Of a stretch of 64,000 bases of DNA, positions 769 to 9,075 are shown in pieces. Origin of the DNA: Chloroflexota bacterium. Lineage in GTDB: Bacteria > Chloroflexota > Anaerolineae > B4-G1 > DUEL01. The first letter of the stretch is position 1. Each line of letters starts with the position of its first letter. Where the stretch lies: contig JADBJJ010000017.1 in NCBI GenBank assembly GCA_014874475.1, forward strand, positions 1 to 64,000, given 5' to 3'. The notes under the pieces are model-generated. The model did not search any database. It was given only the letters and a program-made list of their open reading frames with translations, and had not been told where the DNA came from. Made by a program: the position numbers and the translations under genes.

Positions 769-927
769 CTTCATCAGCGCCGATCCCATCATTCTGCCGG
801 GCGTGCAGAGCTTGAACCGATACGCGTTACGTTAACAACAACCCATTACTGTACACCGATCCCAGTGGCCACCGGATGGAGACGGCTGGCAGGACGAGAC
901 GGTCATCAGCTCAACCTATACCGCCGA
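769..927 (+). pseudogene. Decayed Rhs core remnant
   Basis: Translation gives FISADPI, LNRYA and, after a one-base frameshift, YVNNNPLLYTDPSGH. This is the end of an Rhs core like those at about 2930-3015 and 5130-5222. A further frame change near 880 leads into the reading frame of the large Rhs gene at 929 (D-G-W-Q-D-E-T-V-I-S-S). It is a fossil copy of the repeated core, fused by deletion to the next unit. Confidence 0.7.
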
Positions 928-928
928 C

Positions 929-3739
929 GTGAGCGTGTGGGTGGAAGGCACGGCCGAGCCGGGGGCGTTCATCACGCTGCTGGACGGCGGTATCTTCACC
1001 GTCACGCTGGAGAACCCCACCGGCGCCGATGGCCGCTGGGCGGGGGAGTACCTCCTCCACGGCGGGGTCAACCGCATCGTCGCCGTCGCCCACGACACCA
1101 CCGGCATCCCCAGCCCGCCCTCCAACTATGTGCGGGTCACCCACTTTGTGCACCCGCCGCTCTACGGCATAGGGACCGACCCGGCGACGGTGGCCGCCGG
1201 TGACACAACCCGCCTGTGGGCGCACGTGCGCGGCCACTGGCCGATGGAGGGTGCGGCGACCACGGCGGCCTGGGCCTTCCCGCCGGTCGGGGAACCGCTC
1301 TCGCTGACCCACCGCACGGCGATTTCCGCCGGCCAACTCTGGCTCTGGGACAACCCCTGGGCGGTGCCTGCCGGCCTGCCCTCGCAGGATGCGGTGGTCT
1401 ACTTGGAGGCGGTGGATGGGGACAACCTGACCGGCTGGGGAGAGGTGGGGCTGGCGATCCGCAATGCGCCGCCTGCGCCCCAGATTACCGGCCCGGCGGA
1501 GACCTATCTCACCGATGCCCGTTTCTCCGTCTGGGGCATCGTGCGCAGCGCCGAGGCGCTGACGGTGAGCGTGCGGGAGGGTGCGGATGAGCGGGGGCGG
1601 GCCCGCTCCGTTGGCTGGGACCCCACCGTGGGGGTCAACTGGCAGGCGGTGGTGACGCTGAGCGGCGAGGGGGCGCACACGCTGTGGGCGCAGGCGAGCA
1701 GCGACTTTGGGCTGGTTTCAGCGCCGGGGCCTGCGCGGACCTTCATCCTGGACCTCCATCCGCCGACGGTGACGCTGGGGGCGCTGCCGCCGTACACCAA
1801 TGCGCTGGACCTGAACCTGCGCTGGGCGGGGGATGACGGCGCCGGAAGCGGCATTGTCGGCTACGGGGTAGAGCATCGCTATGGTGGGGGAGAGTGGGGC
1901 GAGTGGGCCTCCGGCGGGGCGGAATACACGGCGGCCCTCTACCCGCTGCACCAGGAGGGGGTGTATGGCCTGCGGGTGCGGGCGGTGGACCGCGTCGGGC
2001 GGGTGGGGTATTCGGCAGCGCAGAGTGTGGTGGCCGACCGGACCCCGCCGACGCTGACACTTGCGCTCACCGAGAACAGCCCCTACGCCCACGTCGCCGG
2101 CCAGACGGCCTACTACGGTGTGGGCAGCGGCGGTTTCACCGTCACGGCGACGCTGGCCGACGGGACGGCGGGGCTGGCGGAGGTCGTGTTCCCGGACGCC
2201 ACCACTTCCGGTGCGGCATACGGGCTGAACGGCGCGGCGAGCGCCGCCGTCAGCCACGCCTACACCTTCACGGCGGCCTCTACCTTCAGCGGCGCCGTGC
2301 CCGTCACCGTCACCGACCGGGCGACCAATGTCACCGTGCGGAGGTTCACCGTGGAGCGGGATGCGACCGCGCCGCAGGTGTGGCTGGATGCGCCGACCCG
2401 CGTCTACACCGCTCCCTTCACCGTCACCTGGGGCGCAAGCGACGCGCAAGCGGGCGTGGCGTGGTACGACCTGGACGTGAGCGTGGATGGCGGCTCGTGG
2501 CAGCGGGTGCTCACCCAGACCACGGCCACTGCCCATACCATTGGCCAATCGGCCAACTACTTCTTCTTCCGGCTCACCGCCACCGACCACGTCTCCAACA
2601 GCGCCGTCGTCACCGCCGTCGCCTTTGTCCCTGCGGTCACCAAGTATTACCATCACGGCGGCGCGCGGGTTGCGATGCGGGCGGGTGGTGTGGTATACTA
2701 CCTGCACGCTGACCATTTGGGGAGCACCTCTTTAACAACCGATGCCGGGGGCAACCGAATAGCCGAAATGCGCTACCTGCCCTATGGCGGGACGCGCTAC
2801 GAGTGGGGCCACATCCCCACCGACCGCCGCTACACCGGCCAGCGCTGGGAACCATCCCTGGGCCTCTACGACTACCGCGCCCGCTACTACCATCCGGGGG
2901 TGGGGAGGTTCATCAGTGCGGATACAATTGTGCCAGAGCCGGGAAATCCGCAGGACCTGAACCGGTATGCGTATGTGCGCAACAACCCACTGAAATACAC
3001 TGATCCCAGCGGGCATATACTGGGCCTCGGCGATGGAGGAAGACGTAAGCGGGAGCCACCGCCACCACTGTCTCGGGAACGAGGAGGACGTAGGCAGGAG
3101 CCACCGCCACCACTGCCTCGGGAACCCGGAAGATCAGTACCTGATTCGTGGAAACAGGTTGAGAAGATTCTCGGTATCGCAGCTACCTGTGACATAGTAG
3201 CCGCGGCAGCCAGCATAAATGGTCTGATATTGGAGGGAGCGGGATTCATAGCAGGTGTTATAGGTGAACCCAGTCCAGGTGGAGGAGAAGCGGTTAGTTT
3301 CGGGAGTGCAGTGCTGGCGTACTATACGGTGATTAATCCTATTGAGAACAGGATCAGCAGTTGGGGTGCAATGTTCGCTGCGGCTGGTGATTATTTTGGT
3401 GGAAGGACGTACTTTGACCGGAAGAACAGCGAACTTGTGATCGGCCAAGACACAATAGTCAGTTATGGTGTACTGGCACTTGGAAATCAGGGGATTCTAT
3501 CTCTTGAAGGGGTAGGTGATACTCTTGTGAACGCGGGACTGGTGGCCTATGATATGGGCAGATTGGGCGAAAGGATACCCACGGTAGCCGAGAACCGCGT
3601 GGGGTTTAGCGTAGATAGAGGGGGATTCTATGTGGATTTGGTTGTCTATGGTGCTTTAGCTGAACGGTGGGGAAGAAAGCCAGGCGACCGATACCAACTG
3701 ATTTTGAATCTGTCTGCTGAGCAAGGATGGGTACCATGA
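929..3739 (+). CDS. Rhs/YD-repeat-type protein, unit A (5'-truncated), unknown C-terminal tip
   Basis: The ORF codes for 936 aa; GTG 929 is only the first possible start, has no Shine-Dalgarno sequence, and the frame runs in from the remnant upstream. Residues 1 to about 570 look like Ig-like beta-sandwich repeats, rich in T/V and D-x-T-x-P. Residues about 575-695 form the Rhs core (KYYHHGGARV, YLHADHLGS, YTGQRW, ARYYHPGVGRFISAD, YTDPSGH). In Rhs proteins this core encloses and autocleaves before a variable toxin tip. The tip, residues about 697-936, begins with a duplicated Pro/Arg-rich linker, then has Gly/Ala-rich hydrophobic stretches and clearly lower GC. I do not recognise its activity. 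Three small membrane-protein genes follow directly. Lack of a signal peptide and start region suggests a displaced cassette rather than an intact gene. Confidence 0.8.
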   Translation: MSVWVEGTAEPGAFITLLDGGIFTVTLENPTGADGRWAGEYLLHGGVNRIVAVAHDTTGIPSPPSNYVRVTHFVHPPLYGIGTDPATVAAGDTTRLWAHVRGHWPMEGAATTAAWAFPPVGEPLSLTHRTAISAGQLWLWDNPWAVPAGLPSQDAVVYLEAVDGDNLTGWGEVGLAIRNAPPAPQITGPAETYLTDARFSVWGIVRSAEALTVSVREGADERGRARSVGWDPTVGVNWQAVVTLSGEGAHTLWAQASSDFGLVSAPGPARTFILDLHPPTVTLGALPPYTNALDLNLRWAGDDGAGSGIVGYGVEHRYGGGEWGEWASGGAEYTAALYPLHQEGVYGLRVRAVDRVGRVGYSAAQSVVADRTPPTLTLALTENSPYAHVAGQTAYYGVGSGGFTVTATLADGTAGLAEVVFPDATTSGAAYGLNGAASAAVSHAYTFTAASTFSGAVPVTVTDRATNVTVRRFTVERDATAPQVWLDAPTRVYTAPFTVTWGASDAQAGVAWYDLDVSVDGGSWQRVLTQTTATAHTIGQSANYFFFRLTATDHVSNSAVVTAVAFVPAVTKYYHHGGARVAMRAGGVVYYLHADHLGSTSLTTDAGGNRIAEMRYLPYGGTRYEWGHIPTDRRYTGQRWEPSLGLYDYRARYYHPGVGRFISADTIVPEPGNPQDLNRYAYVRNNPLKYTDPSGHILGLGDGGRRKREPPPPLSRERGGRRQEPPPPLPREPGRSVPDSWKQVEKILGIAATCDIVAAAASINGLILEGAGFIAGVIGEPSPGGGEAVSFGSAVLAYYTVINPIENRISSWGAMFAAAGDYFGGRTYFDRKNSELVIGQDTIVSYGVLALGNQGILSLEGVGDTLVNAGLVAYDMGRLGERIPTVAENRVGFSVDRGGFYVDLVVYGALAERWGRKPGDRYQLILNLSAEQGWVP
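2363..3015 (+). repeat. Rhs core direct repeat, copy 1
   Basis: About 650 bp that recurs, full length or partial, at 4558-5222, 6350-6608 and 7755-8069. Identity is high through the HADHLGS, TGQR and ARYYHPGVGRF segments. It ends at the Y-T-D-P-S/T-G-H boundary, after which the copies are unrelated. Confidence 0.85.
3042..3131 (+). repeat. Tandem 2 x 45-bp repeat encoding a Pro/Arg-rich linker
   Basis: Two adjacent near-identical 45-bp copies, starting at 3042 and 3087, encode R-K/R-x-E-PPPPL-x-RE in frame. They sit just after the Rhs core end and form the linker between core and tip of unit A. Confidence 0.8.
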
Positions 3740-3771
3740 TAAAGTCTTTACGAGGATGGGAGGGGGTGTAA

Positions 3772-3903
3772 ATGGTGGACAGTAGGCTCTTTGCAACCTT
3801 GCTATTGGCGGTTGTCTTCCTTGCCACCCAGTGCATCAGGGATTACATTGGATTCCAGTTCTGGCTGCGTAACCTCTTAAACTATTTCGAACTGCCCGGC
3901 TGA
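3772..3903 (+). CDS. Small membrane protein (43 aa) after Rhs tip A
   Basis: ATG 3772 is preceded by a purine-rich GGGAGGGGG and ends at TGA 3901. The product is MVDSRLFATLLLAVVFLATQ and then a polar, aromatic tail (C-I-R-D-Y-I-G-F-Q-F-W). Residues 6-20 form one membrane segment, or possibly a lipoprotein-like signal with Cys at 21. Position straight after the Rhs tip suggests an immunity or accessory role, which is inference only. No family is recognised. Confidence 0.45.
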   Translation: MVDSRLFATLLLAVVFLATQCIRDYIGFQFWLRNLLNYFELPG

Positions 3904-3963
3904 CTAAAAAGGTTGCACCGTGATCTTCGCTTTGGTTGGCGGGTAGTAGTGCTAAGAGGAGTA

Positions 3964-4170
3964 TTGACGTCCCTATCCTGGATGAGTGCAAGCCTAATTC
4001 TGTTGATCTGGGTGCCTTTCTGGAACCTGTTGCCAGTGTGCATAGGAGCAAGCTTGGCGATAGGCTTGTACAACATCGTAGGGGATGTTTTTCACCTGCG
4101 AAGGTGCCGGCGCTATCGTTCACGAGCTCAAAATTGGGAAGCGCCAAATAGAACTGGCGGAGGCGCGTGA
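3964..4170 (+). CDS. Small two-helix membrane protein after Rhs tip A
   Basis: TTG 3964 has AGAGGAG two bases upstream; an in-frame TTG at 3913 lacks a ribosome site. The product is 68 aa with hydrophobic segments at about 8-22 and 26-42, then a basic tail. Its TGA at 4168-4170 overlaps the ATG of the next gene, suggesting translational coupling. The product is unrecognised; a candidate membrane immunity protein by context. Confidence 0.4.
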   Translation: MTSLSWMSASLILLIWVPFWNLLPVCIGASLAIGLYNIVGDVFHLRRCRRYRSRAQNWEAPNRTGGGA

Positions 4171-4511
4171 TGACCGTAGTGACATGGTTCGCTCTAGTGA
4201 CTTTGATACTCGCTCTTGTCTCGGTTGTCGGTGGTGCAGCCGGTACAATCATGAGCCTCCACTTGTATAGGGACCCGACCCAGCACAGGTTCTTGACGCG
4301 CCCCCGCACAGGGTTCATTCTTAGCCTGTTAACGGGAGTTCTTCTCGGGATATCAGAGATGCTATTCCTGGGATTTCTGTGGTGGCTTGGCCTCTATACT
4401 TTCTCGACAGTTCTTGCCGCGTCCATTGCCACAGCGATATTTGCGGCTATTGGAACGTATGGAGGTTGGACGATTGGCGTTAAGAAGTTTAAGAGGCGAA
4501 TAGACGGCTGA
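4170..4511 (+). CDS. Small multi-span membrane protein after Rhs tip A
   Basis: ATG 4170 overlaps the preceding stop codon; GTG 4167 is also in frame. The product is about 113 aa with three predicted membrane helices at roughly 5-27, 48-68 and 73-98, and a basic C-terminus (KKFKRRIDG). It is the third small membrane gene in a row behind Rhs unit A, and the next Rhs core begins about 40 bp later. Function is unknown. The same arrangement of tip then short membrane protein recurs after units B and C, which supports a toxin-antidote reading. Confidence 0.55.
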   Translation: MTVVTWFALVTLILALVSVVGGAAGTIMSLHLYRDPTQHRFLTRPRTGFILSLLTGVLLGISEMLFLGFLWWLGLYTFSTVLAASIATAIFAAIGTYGGWTIGVKKFKRRIDG

Positions 4512-4547
4512 ACCTACAGTCTTTCGCGCATCTCGCATTCCGCCATT

Positions 4548-5933
4548 GTGCAAAATGCCACCCCGCCGCGGGTATGGCTGAACGTACCGTGGCGGGCCTA
4601 CACCACCCCCTTCACCGTCACCTGGGGTGCGGGCGATGACCAATCCGGCGTAGCCTACTATGATCTCGACGTGAGCGTGGATGGCGGCTCGTGGCAGCGG
4701 GTGCTCACCCGGACCACGGCCACTGCCCATACCATTGGCCAATCGGCCAACTACTTCTTCTTCCGGCTCACTGCCACCGACCACGTCTCCAACAGCGCTG
4801 TGGTCACCACCGCCGCCTTCGTCCCCGCGGTCACCAAGTATTACCATCACGGCGGTGCGCGGGTTGCGCTGCGCACTACCGGCACGGGCGGGAGCGTGGT
4901 ATACTACCTGCACGCCGACCATCTCGGCTCCGCCACACTGAGCACCGATGGTGGCGGGCAGGTGGTGGCGCGGCAGTTCTATCACCCCTACGGCACCGTG
5001 CGCCACCGCCAGGGCACCTTCCCAACCGATATCGGCTTCACCGGCCAGCGTGCGGATGAGAGCACCGGCCTGATGTACTACCGCGCCCGCTACTACCATC
5101 CGGGGGTGGGGCGGTTCGTGAGCGCGGATACGATTGTGCCCGAGCCGGGGAATCCGCAGAGCCTCAACAGGTTCGCGTATGTGCTGGGGAATCCGCTCAG
5201 GTATACGGATCCGACAGGGCATTTCAGCGATGCTCAGCTCAAGAAATGGTTCGGAGATAGCTGGCGTACTCTGTTTAGCGAGACTTGGCAACGTATTCTA
5301 CTCTTGGCAGAATTTGGCGATGCAGTAGTATATGGCAGTGGTGAATATGCGTACTTTTTTATCGTCGCTGGATCTGAGGGCGAGTTGGTGGCATGGAACA
5401 TAAACCCCTCTCTTTCCCTCAATCTGGGTGAAGTCCAGTTGAGGGATATTTATGAGCATGTTAACACAGATAGCATTGCCCTCTTTCGCTCGAAATACGC
5501 TAATCCAGGAGGCGGACCTAGCAGTGATTATGAGTGGGATAGCTATTTTTGCGTTCCCTATGTGTACAGCGATATTCAGGATGGTCCCACTGCTCCCTAC
5601 CGATACAGATACATTGGTGGTGATACAGGCTATGGGCTGGACAAAAACTTTCCACCTCGCTGGAATCTAGGGCCACCTGGGGTATCCAGTCTGGGCTATT
5701 ATGTTGAAGTCAGGCATAAGCTGGCGGGATTTGAGTGGCCGTCAGTTCCCGGTCTTATTGGTGGAATATTAGGGCTGGCTAGCGGGGGTTGGAGCAGGAT
5801 AGTGGGATTAGCTGTCTTTCTTTGGGATTTGCAAACCTACGACACCTCGTATAGGGTGGTCCCTTCCACTCCTACTGTTCGACCAATACCGACACCTGGC
5901 CCTGTTTCTACCCCGGCAGGTAATGGGAGATAG
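4548..5933 (+). CDS. Rhs core fragment with unknown tip, unit B
   Basis: The ORF codes for 461 aa from GTG 4548, which has no Shine-Dalgarno sequence, so this is probably a silent orphan cassette. Residues 1-225 repeat the Ig-like end and core of unit A (VDGGSWQRVLT, KYYHHGGARVALR, YLHADHLGSATLSTD, ADESTGLMYYRARYYHPG, YTDPTGH). Residues 226-461 are a distinct AT-richer tip. It is rich in Trp, Tyr and Gly, has a hydrophobic segment near 405-425 (VPGLIGGILGLASGG) and a Pro/Thr end. No known toxin motif was recognised. A small membrane protein starts three bases after its stop. In known Rhs systems such orphans can replace the tip of an upstream full gene by recombination through the core. Confidence 0.75.
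   Translation: MQNATPPRVWLNVPWRAYTTPFTVTWGAGDDQSGVAYYDLDVSVDGGSWQRVLTRTTATAHTIGQSANYFFFRLTATDHVSNSAVVTTAAFVPAVTKYYHHGGARVALRTTGTGGSVVYYLHADHLGSATLSTDGGGQVVARQFYHPYGTVRHRQGTFPTDIGFTGQRADESTGLMYYRARYYHPGVGRFVSADTIVPEPGNPQSLNRFAYVLGNPLRYTDPTGHFSDAQLKKWFGDSWRTLFSETWQRILLLAEFGDAVVYGSGEYAYFFIVAGSEGELVAWNINPSLSLNLGEVQLRDIYEHVNTDSIALFRSKYANPGGGPSSDYEWDSYFCVPYVYSDIQDGPTAPYRYRYIGGDTGYGLDKNFPPRWNLGPPGVSSLGYYVEVRHKLAGFEWPSVPGLIGGILGLASGGWSRIVGLAVFLWDLQTYDTSYRVVPSTPTVRPIPTPGPVSTPAGNGR
4558..5222 (+). repeat. Rhs core direct repeat, copy 2
   Basis: Homologous to 2363-3015. Similarity starts at the codons for P-x-V-W-L and ends at Y-T-D-P-T-G-H. It closely matches copy 4 in the TDGGGQVVARQ-type segment. 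Confidence 0.85.
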
Positions 5934-5936
5934 ACA

Positions 5937-6314
5937 ATGTTAAGGGGCCACGCATTAGATATAGCATGGGGTATCGTAGGCGTTTTGACAATACCCCCTC
6001 TGATCAAGTTGGTGCTGGATTTTAATGCTCGTCTGGATATCAATTGGCTGCCAATTTTAATCGCAGCAGGACTAGGAGTATGTGTTGGGCTGGTACCCAG
6101 CCTGTGGTTCATGCGCAAGTATCTTCCTGCGCAAAGGATTACACAGGTACGTGTTATACTCTGTTTGGCTGGGATCGTATTGCTCAAACTTTGGCCTGGA
6201 GATAAAAGCATCTCCGAGCTTTGGTTCTTTATCAGCGTACTTGTTTTGGCCATTGGACACTTTCAATTCCGGCGAAAGCGCACTGTGCGACCTTCGGCTG
6301 AGAGCCACGGTTGA
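5937..6314 (+). CDS. Four-helix small membrane protein after Rhs tip B, putative immunity protein
   Basis: The product is 125 aa, starting three bases after the stop of unit B (ATG 5937, GGGAG about 12 bases upstream), so it is probably translated with it. Four hydrophobic segments lie at about 8-24, 33-53, 68-83 and 90-108, with a basic Arg-Arg-Lys tail. The next Rhs core begins within 40 bp of its stop. No family is recognised. Position and membrane topology match the genes after tips A and C. Confidence 0.55.
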   Translation: MLRGHALDIAWGIVGVLTIPPLIKLVLDFNARLDINWLPILIAAGLGVCVGLVPSLWFMRKYLPAQRITQVRVILCLAGIVLLKLWPGDKSISELWFFISVLVLAIGHFQFRRKRTVRPSAESHG

Positions 6315-6349
6315 ACTGCTGAAGCCTGACCATAGCTCATGTCTCCCGC

Positions 6350-6608
6350 ACCACAGCGCAGCAGCGCTACCTGCCTTATGGCGGCGTGCGTCACAGCGAA
6401 GGCGCCTTCCCAACCGACATCGGCTTCACCGGCCAGCGGGCAGATGAGAGCACCGGCCTGATGTACTACCGCGCCCGCTACTACCATCCGGGGGTGGGGA
6501 GATTTATCAGTGCGGATACAATTGTGCCGGAGCCGGGGAATCCGCAGAGCCTGAACCGGTATGCGTATGTGCGGAACAACCCGTTGCGGTATACTGATCC
6601 GATCGGAT
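6350..6608 (+). repeat. Rhs core direct repeat, copy 3 (partial)
   Basis: Contains only the last third of the core, from R-Y-L-P-Y-G-G to Y-T-D-P-I-G-Y. It directly abuts the stop region of the preceding small membrane gene. Confidence 0.8.
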
Positions 6609-7306
6609 ACTATAGCGAAGAAGAGATTAAGCGCTCTTTCGGTGTGAAATCTTGGGGTGAAGTGCTGGCATACTTCCGGAAAGGTAGCGTATTGGAAGGT
6701 AGGTGGGGTTGGTTAGAGATATTGAGGCGAGCAAAAGACAACTACATGGTAACGGGGAGCAAATCCGTGCCAGTTGACAACCTGCCTAGCGAATACATTA
6801 GCGCGTGGCCAGGTGGATTCTTCAGCCGAAATGAGAGGGGAGAGATACTCGTCGGCGGCGAATCACACATTGAATTCGCACTGCGATACGAGGAGTATGT
6901 GCTTCGGAAATCTGGTTGGCCGGGCGAACTCGGTCTGTACCCCGAGTTCTACACACGTGCGGACTGGATTCACTTTCACCCCCACCTCCGCTTTGAGCCT
7001 GATTGGGAAGCAGCTAAGCGAGATTTAGCTAGCATAGGCCTGGATGTTGTTGGAGTAGCAGCAATAGCAACCAGCACTCCTGAGGGTACCGTAATAGGAG
7101 GCATAGCTATAGGATTTGGCATAGCGGTTGATCTTGGGAAATCCATAGAGGGACTCTTGCGACTCATAGCATATAAACATACGGGATCTTATACATCGCA
7201 TAATTTCCTCGATATGGTTGGAATTGTGCCGGTAATAGGAATATACTCTGATTGGGTAAGCTTTGGCAGCAATCTTACAGAAGTATACATTGAGGTGACA
7301 CCGTAG
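6386..7306 (+). CDS. Rhs core fragment with unknown tip, unit C
   Basis: Core homology starts near 6350 (QQRYLPYGG) and the ORF is open there; GTG 6386 is only the first formal start and has no ribosome site. Residues 1-74 are core (FPTDIGFTGQRADESTG, ARYYHPGVGRFISADT, NRYAYVRNNPLRYTDP). Residues 75-306 are a new tip with a YSEEEIKRSFG start, a possible polar enzymatic half, then a hydrophobic glycine-rich segment near 215-245 and an aromatic C-terminus. The tip differs from A and B and I cannot assign it. A small membrane protein follows after 77 bp. Confidence 0.7.
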   Translation: MRHSEGAFPTDIGFTGQRADESTGLMYYRARYYHPGVGRFISADTIVPEPGNPQSLNRYAYVRNNPLRYTDPIGYYSEEEIKRSFGVKSWGEVLAYFRKGSVLEGRWGWLEILRRAKDNYMVTGSKSVPVDNLPSEYISAWPGGFFSRNERGEILVGGESHIEFALRYEEYVLRKSGWPGELGLYPEFYTRADWIHFHPHLRFEPDWEAAKRDLASIGLDVVGVAAIATSTPEGTVIGGIAIGFGIAVDLGKSIEGLLRLIAYKHTGSYTSHNFLDMVGIVPVIGIYSDWVSFGSNLTEVYIEVTP

Positions 7307-7383
7307 GGACATCTTCAGCACGAAACACTCAAACGGGATACCGGGGCGCACAATCGAGTACCGAAAACGGGGAAAGGAAGGAT

Positions 7384-7665
7384 ATGATTATGGAATTCGA
7401 CTTTGACAGCGCTGCCTTTTGGTTTCTTGTAGGAGCACTCCCGGTAGCCCTCGTCGGTATAGTGTTGTACCGAAAGAGAGTGATAAACGCAGAGATTGTA
7501 GTACGTGTATTCAGCCCACTGGCTCTTATAGTAGGCAACGTAATCTTCATCTGGAAGGCAGCCCCCACCTTACACATTGGGCTGAAGTTACTTTTCGTGG
7601 TCTGTGCCACGCTGGCTGTGTTACCTTTCATAGCATTGGGTGAAATGCTTCGTAGGAGACGGTAG
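7384..7665 (+). CDS. Small membrane protein after Rhs tip C, putative immunity protein
   Basis: The product is 93 aa, with ATG 7384 (or ATG 7390) behind an AAGGAAGGAT ribosome site. Three hydrophobic segments lie at about 10-26, 37-57 and 65-85, ending in a basic RRRR tail. It lies between Rhs tip C and core copy 4, the same position as the membrane proteins after tips A and B. No family is recognised. Confidence 0.55.
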   Translation: MIMEFDFDSAAFWFLVGALPVALVGIVLYRKRVINAEIVVRVFSPLALIVGNVIFIWKAAPTLHIGLKLLFVVCATLAVLPFIALGEMLRRRR

Positions 7666-7754
7666 GCACAATGAGAGAGTTATGGTAACTATTCAGCTAC
7701 CTCCTACTTGCACACTTGCATACCTGCAAACTTGCCCACTTGCCCACTTTTACA

Positions 7755-8069
7755 CCTTCCGTCTGATCGCCACCGACCACGTCTCCAACGCTGCCGTTGT
7801 CACCGCCACCACCATTGTCCCCGCCGTCACCAAATACTACCACCACGGCGGGGCGCGGGTGGCGCTGCGCACTACCGTTGCGGGCGTGGGCGTGGTATAC
7901 TACCTGCACGGCGACCATCTCGGCTCCGCCACACTGAGCACCGATGGCAGCGGGCAGGTGGTGGCGCGGCAGCTGTACCACCCCTACGGCGTTGTGCGCC
8001 ACCGCCAGGGCACCTTCCCAACCGATATCGGCTTCACCGGCCAGCGTGCGGATAGCAGCACCGGCCTGA
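7755..8069 (+). pseudogene. Rhs core copy 4, truncated by an IS5-family insertion
   Basis: Reads FRLIATDHVSN, KYYHHGGARVALR, YLHGDHLGSATLSTD and FPTDIGFTGQRADSSTGL. Identity with copy 2 stops at 8069, where the expected MYYRARYYHPG is replaced by the IS end. No tip survives. Before the core is a low-complexity stretch of ACTTGC-like repeats (about 7704-7750) that joins it to the preceding gene. Confidence 0.8.
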
Positions 8070-9075
8070 GGCTTTGGTGCATAAATTGCGCTACAAACAA
8101 ACGTGAGCAGCGCTCTCTGTTTCTTGATGACTGTTGGCAGCTCCATTGGGTGACTGGGTCAGGTCACCGCATAACTGTCCGGCATCCCCAGATGCGTCAT
8201 AATGTTCAACGCCCGGCAGCGAATGAACACCTGGGTGCGCTGGACAGGGAGCAAACGGGCACTCAGATGGTCCCCAAAGATGGTTTTCCGGCGAAAAACA
8301 GCCGTCTCCGCCAACGAACGGCGATGATAGTGGCAGTGCCTCTCCCAGGCACGGCGACCGTGCTTCCGAATATAACGCAGATTCTCGTTGCGCGGATGGG
8401 GCGGCCCTGGAGCATTAGCGTGTCGCCAGATGCGGGCATCCCGCCGGGGTGGAATCGCGATCGCCACCCCAGGGCTGTGGGTCTGCAGGGCCTCATACAC
8501 TTCCCGCCGGTCATAGGCCCCGTCACCGGCTGCGCTGGCAATGGGCTGCTCTACCTGCTTCAGCATAGGCTTGACAACCTTAGAACCATGCACGCCGGCC
8601 TCGGTCAATTCTACTGCCTGAATTTCGCCCCCTGTGCTATCTACGACCAGATGGAATACCCGCCAGGTGCGCCGTTTTGATGGGCCGCGCAGACGGACTT
8701 TCCACTCCCCTTCACCATAGACCTTCAGCCCGCTACTATCCAGCACCACGTGGAGCGGGCCTTGGGCCTTTTTGGGCAGGCGGACTCGCACCGTTCTGCC
8801 CCGGCGCGAGAGGGTAGTATGGTCGGGCACCGGCAGGGGAATTCCCATCTTCTGGACAGAGAACGCACAAAGCCCTCTGCTCCCCGATTGGGCAGATGGT
8901 ACACTTCCCGGAGGGTCAGGACGGTCTCAATGGCCGTGTCGCTGTAGACAAAAGGGGCGCCTCGGTGGGTCGGTCCATCGTACAGCCATCCGGCGATGGC
9001 ATCGTCCGACACTCAAAGAATCACCGCAAGCCCACGGTCCTCTCTCCATCTCCCCTCCCCGCGCTGCGCAGCCAC
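8070..9075 (-). mobile_element. Damaged IS5-family insertion sequence (one end missing)
   Basis: The left end at 8070 begins GGCTTTGGTGCATAAAT, very close to the terminal repeat I recall for IS903-group IS5 elements. It begins exactly where Rhs core 4 breaks off. The transposase runs leftward through 8159-9060. I could not find a matching inverted end on the right side (reverse complement ending CAAAGCC) before the next gene, so that end is lost. The right boundary given here is approximate. Confidence 0.7.
8159..9060 (-). pseudogene. IS5-family transposase, broken
   Basis: Minus-strand translation gives conserved IS5 segments in two frames. The N-terminal part has SDDAIAGWLYDGP, PFVYSDTAIETVLTLREVYH and FVRSLSRR. 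After a frameshift near 8850-8865 it continues LPVPDHTTLSRR, DSSGLKVYGEGEWKVR, KRRTWRVFHL, DGAYDRREVYEAL and LPVQRTQVFIRCRALNIMT. An in-frame TGA near 9014 replaces a Trp-like position (R-G-L-A-V-I-L-stop-V-S-D-D). Catalytic DDE-type surroundings are partly kept, but the gene cannot make a full protein. The plus-strand ORF over the same bases is an antisense shadow. Confidence 0.85.

Follow-up and report, generated by a model that had tools for sequence, protein, structure and literature searches.

A probable array of silent Rhs toxin/immunity cassettes with candidate membrane-acting tips in an Anaerolineae genome

The rhs genes of enterobacteria undergo C-terminal displacement, and the cores within one locus are identical (Jackson 2009, PMC2935791). 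Orphan modules of such systems retain expressible immunity genes, and their toxins lack translation initiation signals (Poole 2011, PMC3150448; see also Hagan 2023, PMC10539506). The ionophores of contact-dependent growth inhibition (CDI) systems consist of a variable entry domain and a membrane-active domain, a five-helix bundle, carry a GxxxGxxxG glycine zipper, are paired with hydrophobic immunity proteins of 72-100 aa that form a two-helix hairpin, and show strong toxin/immunity polymorphism (PMC11630599). In Pseudomonas aeruginosa, Tse5 is a pore-forming Rhs effector with a hydrophobic, non-enzymatic toxin at its C-terminus, delivered by a type VI secretion system (T6SS), and Tsi5 is its immunity protein with two transmembrane (TM) segments (PMC9637101), and type VII secretion system (T7SS) toxins of the EsxX/TspA type have a secreted membrane-depolarising C-terminal domain neutralised by membrane-bound immunity proteins, which occur as orphans too (PMC12744356). 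Here we analysed a 64,000 bp stretch (bases 1-64000 of contig C12, hereafter the window) from a Chloroflexota bacterium of the class Anaerolineae, whose genome assembly comprises 3.0 Mb in 32 contigs and is 97.7% complete. The window carries a tandem array of Rhs cores and tips, which we favour, with some reserve, as an orphan array of silent toxin/immunity cassettes built by repeated C-terminal displacement, with tips that would be ionophore-like and membrane-acting. The sequence statistics support displacement, silence and pairing, and we infer toxicity, target and swapping.

The array resembles the orphan rhs-CT/rhsI and cdiA-CT/cdiI systems in its order, with a long copy at the head and then core pieces that differ in length and bear unrelated tips of low GC content, in having orphan putative toxins without initiation signals beside expressible candidate immunity genes, and in its disruption by an insertion sequence (IS), which is common in those systems. 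It differs from them in its host, a member of the Chloroflexota and not of the Proteobacteria, and in that no full-length driver gene with this core was found in the genome. Shine-Dalgarno (SD) sites, open reading frames (ORFs) and homologs in a 249-genome sample of the class are given with the features of the array.

758-866, + strand: fossil Rhs core end in two frames with one frameshift and no tip left (six-frame translation; two-piece core profile match, E about 1e-3).
836-3013, + strand: copy A, a 5′-incomplete open frame with an Ig-like/OmpL47-like region (about 836-2359; OmpL47-like NCBIfam matches) and then an Rhs core (2360-3013; TIGR03696, E 1.9e-22).
3014-3739, + strand: tip A, 241 aa plus stop, with a Pro-rich linker at its start (homologs in genomes G057 and G241; no Pfam match).
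3772-4170, + strand: tip A partner-like gene, divided by one in-frame TGA at 3901-3903, with three TM segments predicted over both parts (GGAGG-type SD before 3772).
4167-4511, + strand: small membrane protein of 114 aa, the second gene behind tip A (ORF; 5-nt SD match).
4548-5216, + strand: orphan core B, 5′-truncated, no ribosome site (TIGR03696; core comparison).
5217-5933, + strand: tip B, 238 aa, an intact frame that is untranslatable as it stands (G249 homolog followed by a 132-aa protein with four TM segments).
5937-6314, + strand: tip B partner-like membrane protein, 125 aa, about four TM segments, 4 nt past the tip stop (ORF; 4-nt SD match).
6341-6604, + strand: orphan core C, the shortest of cores A, B and C, no ribosome site (TIGR03696; core comparison).
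6605-7306, + strand: tip C, 233 aa, with a conserved N-module (F/Y-S-E-E-E-I...EGRWGWLE) and a Gly-rich hydrophobic C-terminal half (homologs in 12 other class-sample genomes; alignment).
7384-7665, + strand: tip C partner-like membrane protein, 93 aa, about three TM segments (ORF; 4-nt SD match).
7739-8068, + strand: core D fragment that ends before the tip boundary and has no tip (matches core B residues 66-177 only).

An earlier note on this DNA had described a recurrent core, and four copies were indeed found in addition to the fossil at 758-866. The copies share 63-87% nucleotide identity across repeat blocks, which is far above chance and unlike the identical cores per locus described by Jackson; at the amino-acid level they are 76-82% identical to the core of copy B. 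Copies A, B and C match TIGR03696 (Rhs_assc_core) well over the curated cut-off (E 1.9e-22 to 4e-24), and core D scores only below it. A sequence search of the PDB aligned the copy A core with solved Rhs-type cages, with the Tse5 entry 7q97 weakly among them. The core-tip boundary is of the DPxG type with a variable tip after it, and the proposal that every copy ends at Y-T-D-P-x-G-H and then enters a tip holds for A (YTDPSGH) and B (YTDPTGH); copy C ends at YTDPIGY, and copy D is cut by the IS and has no tip. The low GC content noted for the tips was borne out, at 46-55% against 60-73% for the cores and the upstream region. Tip A opens with a 45-bp tandem duplication (3036-3125, 91% identical) that encodes the Pro/Arg-rich linker and is likely a product of recent slippage.

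Good SD sites stand before 111, 3772, 4167, 5937 and 7384, and none was found before tips B and C, so the absence of ribosome sites from copies B and C stands as first described. The same claim had cast them as silent cassettes that swap onto an expressed rhs gene. Silence is upheld by intact orphan tips that cannot be translated and by the first place of the long copy in arrays. The copy A frame is 5′-incomplete: it opens at the fossil-core junction, no SD precedes its first start, and its N-terminal part occurs only once in the genome. Since copy A lacks a ribosome site, the window contains no expressed rhs gene, and because window base 1 is the contig end, the sequence 5′ of the array is unreadable. 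The count of three, one and one membrane proteins after tips A, B and C was correct for B and C; tip A is followed by at most two genes, since a single TGA interrupts the frame that 3772-3903 and 3913-4170 share, and the gene at 4167-4511 is the other. Behind the tip A homologs stand proteins of 110-111 aa with three TM segments.

The same organisation is widespread among relatives found by core search, which are mostly Anaerolineae-class Chloroflexota. This core type is encoded in 49 of 60 relatives, in many of them in tandem, as in the two arrays of the closed genome G056, and 187 core/tip units were pooled from their loci. A long copy stands first in all seven arrays that have at least three units and a long copy, and the start points of the short units vary widely along the core. 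The nearest core came from the same genome in 80 of 106 cases (median identity 89% vs 74%), and tips paired within a genome were homologous in only 12 of 193 comparisons. Among the 82 orphan units of Chloroflexota-type loci, an SD match of at least 4 nt before an in-frame start was found in 4, whereas 100 of the 140 ORFs downstream had one (p 1.9e-24); a shifted control frame of the orphan units gave 10 such matches. Pfam recognised Ntox44, CDI EC869-type nuclease, RES, Tse2-type ADP-ribosyltransferase, TNT, Ntox10, AHH, Tox-REase-7 and HNH domains among 141 array tips and, judged by this domain content, the arrays are polymorphic-toxin arrays. One contig with four Chloroflexota-like Rhs core/tip units (L055) is filed in the archaeal bin Candidatus Methanosuratincola sp. 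MAG-2, by either binning error or transfer.

These arrays bear directly on whether the window holds a decaying relic, that is, displaced fragments left by old recombination and insertion sequences and without present function. The frameshifted fossil core, the TGA in the tip A partner, the IS-truncated core D and the copy A frame without a start would all fit such decay, as would the fact that no full-length rhs gene with the window's core type was found in the genome, a result that also counts against the array being a working store. Nevertheless, the frames of tips B and C are intact (233-238 codons) and their partners retain ribosome sites, orphan tips of relatives are likewise intact in 69 of 82 units (190-265 aa), and the contig ends on the upstream side of the array, where a driver gene may simply be missing from view. 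We regard the relic explanation as quite unlikely.

The pairing of each tip with a small membrane gene, proposed earlier as a toxin-immunity relationship, gained support from tip homologs. In the class sample, homologs were found in two other genomes for tip A, one for tip B and 12 for tip C. Beyond the class, tip C had no match in plasmids or viral contigs, and in a 380-genome sample of the phylum its only matches were the genome that holds the window and a weak one from the same class. A protein of 93-138 aa with 2-4 predicted TM segments follows all 13 complete homologs of tips A, B and C, compared with 18 of 127 (14%) other array tips. A profile built from six partners of tip C with two TM segments gave 12 strong matches in the 249 genomes, every one inside an Rhs array (10 immediately after a tip C relative, the other 2 being orphans that lie between Rhs units), and two weak matches (E 2e-4 and 5e-4) with no core nearby; conservation of such partners apart from Rhs tips, which would have spoken against pairing, was thus not seen among the strong matches. 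Similarity of the tip C-terminal part tracks that of the partner (Mantel rho 0.62, p 0.0002; N-module vs partner 0.52), as expected of cognate pairs inherited together. Tips that never change carriers would likewise have counted against exchange. Relatives of tip C in G063 and G246 are carried by full-length rhs genes, whose open frames span 1965 and 2042 codons, encode YD repeats and a signal-peptide-like N-terminus, and have a ribosome site. In other genera the relatives are joined to orphan cores, and this family is therefore found in both the attached and the detached state.

The joint divergence of tip and partner also bears on a reading in which a surface Rhs/Ig-like protein has the tips as its structural or membrane-anchoring ends and the small membrane proteins as partners in anchoring or assembly. 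It would account for the Ig-like/OmpL47-like region of copy A and for hydrophobic tips with no toxin match. We consider it very improbable, given the recognised toxins among neighbouring tips of same-type arrays, the parallel change of tip and partner, and the lack of any obvious use for a silent store of exchangeable anchors.

As the earlier note had anticipated, none of tips A, B and C matches a known toxin, with no hit in Pfam, NCBIfam or PADLOC; PDB searches with a tip C profile and with tip A returned only weak, implausible matches and none to Tse5 for tip A. Evidence on their target comes from 77 tip families, 19 with a small membrane partner and 58 without. Beyond residue 60, the 19 families are more hydrophobic (p 0.007) and richer in Gly (p 0.0007) than the other 58, and the direction is unchanged when the window's families are removed (p 0.03 and 0.002). 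A tip-proximal motif of the type F-S/T-E/D-x-x-I, picked after the data had been seen, occurs in 7 of 19 families with membrane partners and 1 of 58 others (p 1.4e-4). A Fisher test on the tip C N-module is partly circular because its loci were collected through homology to tip C, and we prefer the family-level tests. Profile comparison aligns tips B and C at the motif (E 2.4e-4, probability 44%). By single linkage the largest tip family has 25 complete tips (L056, L058, L070, L115, L116 and others), including ones that begin with GHWLETxWDIxSIxxD or GHLPVVPLLVAGAI. No small membrane protein ever follows these tips, and the family therefore looks like a different pre-toxin module. On these family-level comparisons the membrane is the likeliest target of tips A, B and C. 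The description of the tips as Gly-rich and hydrophobic thus stands at the level of families with membrane partners; a special glycine motif does not, as zipper counts equal those of shuffled sequences.

The same comparisons bear on an alternative that keeps the orphan array and treats the hydrophobic stretches as pre-toxin or translocation segments, the activity being cytoplasmic and of an unrecognised kind and the membrane proteins acting at entry. Hydrophobic segments do open many recognised enzyme tips of these arrays, and modelling yielded no toxin fold. However, enzyme-type tip families seldom have a membrane partner (58 of the 77 families have none, including the 25-tip family), and it is hydrophobicity past residue 60, not just at the tip start, that tracks membrane partners. 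We judge a cytoplasmic activity unlikely, though by no means negligible.

Several further points weigh against the tips being membrane-acting toxins with cognate immunity proteins. The 13 homologs are not 13 independent trials because they share ancestry, and six of the 12 loci with strong partner-profile matches had themselves supplied the profile. For the partner proteins of the window itself, sequence similarity to the partners of tip homologs is not significant (B gives a weak hint at best), and their pairing therefore rests on position, size and topology; TM segments were called by a simple hydropathy rule. An AlphaFold2 model of tip C from a four-sequence input had a mean predicted local distance difference test score (pLDDT) of 35 and was unusable for fold. 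Each tip has one glycine zipper motif (GxxxGxxxG), equal to the shuffled expectation and not enriched, and the GGILGLASG within the hydrophobic stretch of tip B is unremarkable by itself.

We still favour silent cassettes with membrane-acting tips, and the likenesses to known systems suggest how these might work. An incoming cassette of core, tip and immunity gene would recombine through the shared core, pushing the earlier tip downstream and silencing it while leaving its immunity gene expressible. With displaced tips silent and their immunity genes still makeable, the array would be a store of tips and a protection from relatives that use them. Tips A, B and C may dissipate the membrane potential of the target by inserting into its membrane, where the small proteins with 2-4 TM segments may block them. 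For tips B and C, the role of entry domain could fall to the conserved N-terminal module and that of membrane-active domain to the Gly-rich hydrophobic part, as in CDI ionophores. The array shares with those ionophores a putative two-part C-terminal region, a small hydrophobic membrane gene directly 3′ (behind all 13 complete homologs and in the three window units) and toxin/immunity polymorphism. It differs in its Rhs rather than CdiA carrier, in its unenriched zipper and in partners of 93-138 aa with 2-4 TM segments, and we do not claim membership in that family. Tse5/Tsi5 has in common with it the Rhs carrier, a hydrophobic, putatively non-enzymatic C-terminal toxin and a partner with TM segments; unlike the Tse5 case, no VgrG-type domain (PF04717) was found in the 97.7% complete genome, other T6SS genes not having been sought. 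The EsxX/TspA toxins resemble the proposed pairs in joining a C-terminal membrane-depolarising domain with membrane-bound immunity; they differ in their LXG-type carrier and, for EsxX, an extended glycine zipper, and no sequence link to them is shown. Delivery would probably be from a Sec-exported surface Rhs protein, by analogy with the full-length rhs genes of relatives, which start with a signal-peptide-like segment.

Two further genes flank the array.

111-548, + strand: small DUF7919 (PF25535) protein gene 5′ of the fossil core (Pfam E 2e-38; AGGAG-type SD).
8159-9012, - strand: DDE transposase in two overlapping frames, belonging to the insertion sequence that terminates the array (PF01609, E 3e-19; PF13737).

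The DUF7919 gene is possibly a leftover partner gene, not specific to Rhs. DUF7919 adjoins Rhs cores in the window and in G014 (L079:4493-4927), and no Rhs core lies near it in five other sample genomes; an Rhs-specific immunity family was ruled out, as Rhs arrays hold just 2 of 7 class-sample loci. At G000:C4:22481-22624 (L006) there is a solo end of an Rhs core that carries a short tip, within about 700 bp of a fragment of the IS that truncates core D. It was considered as the missing half of core D, with abutting residue ranges (177/176), and rejected because the IS fragment is about 670 bp off and the identity is lower. A second, more distant Rhs locus (G000:C25:192-2584; L007, L008; 43% core identity) heads towards the start of contig C25. 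As two contigs of the assembly end in Rhs arrays, the assembly probably broke at these repeats.

The array mechanism itself is already known and, as far as the literature shows, what is new is the three tip/partner families and the Anaerolineae-wide evidence; a full-text literature search, with subscription papers mostly outside its reach, found no account of Rhs toxins and their immunity in Anaerolineae. It was in Proteobacteria that orphan Rhs and CDI cassettes were worked out; here 82 orphan units from arrays of the Chloroflexota type show the full pattern, in which intact untranslatable tips beside translatable immunity genes suggest a general device for storage and immunity. More tentatively, and somewhat short of an even call, Anaerolineae may hold large silent libraries of Rhs tips in which the class marked by a modular F-S-x-E/D-x-I entry segment beside the core comprises new ionophores delivered without a T6SS by surface Rhs proteins exported through Sec, each with a small membrane immunity protein that coevolves with the toxin C-terminus. 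The three tip families would be additional unrecognised membrane-acting toxins, and the tip-proximal module linked to membrane partners offers a sequence handle with which more such toxins may be found.

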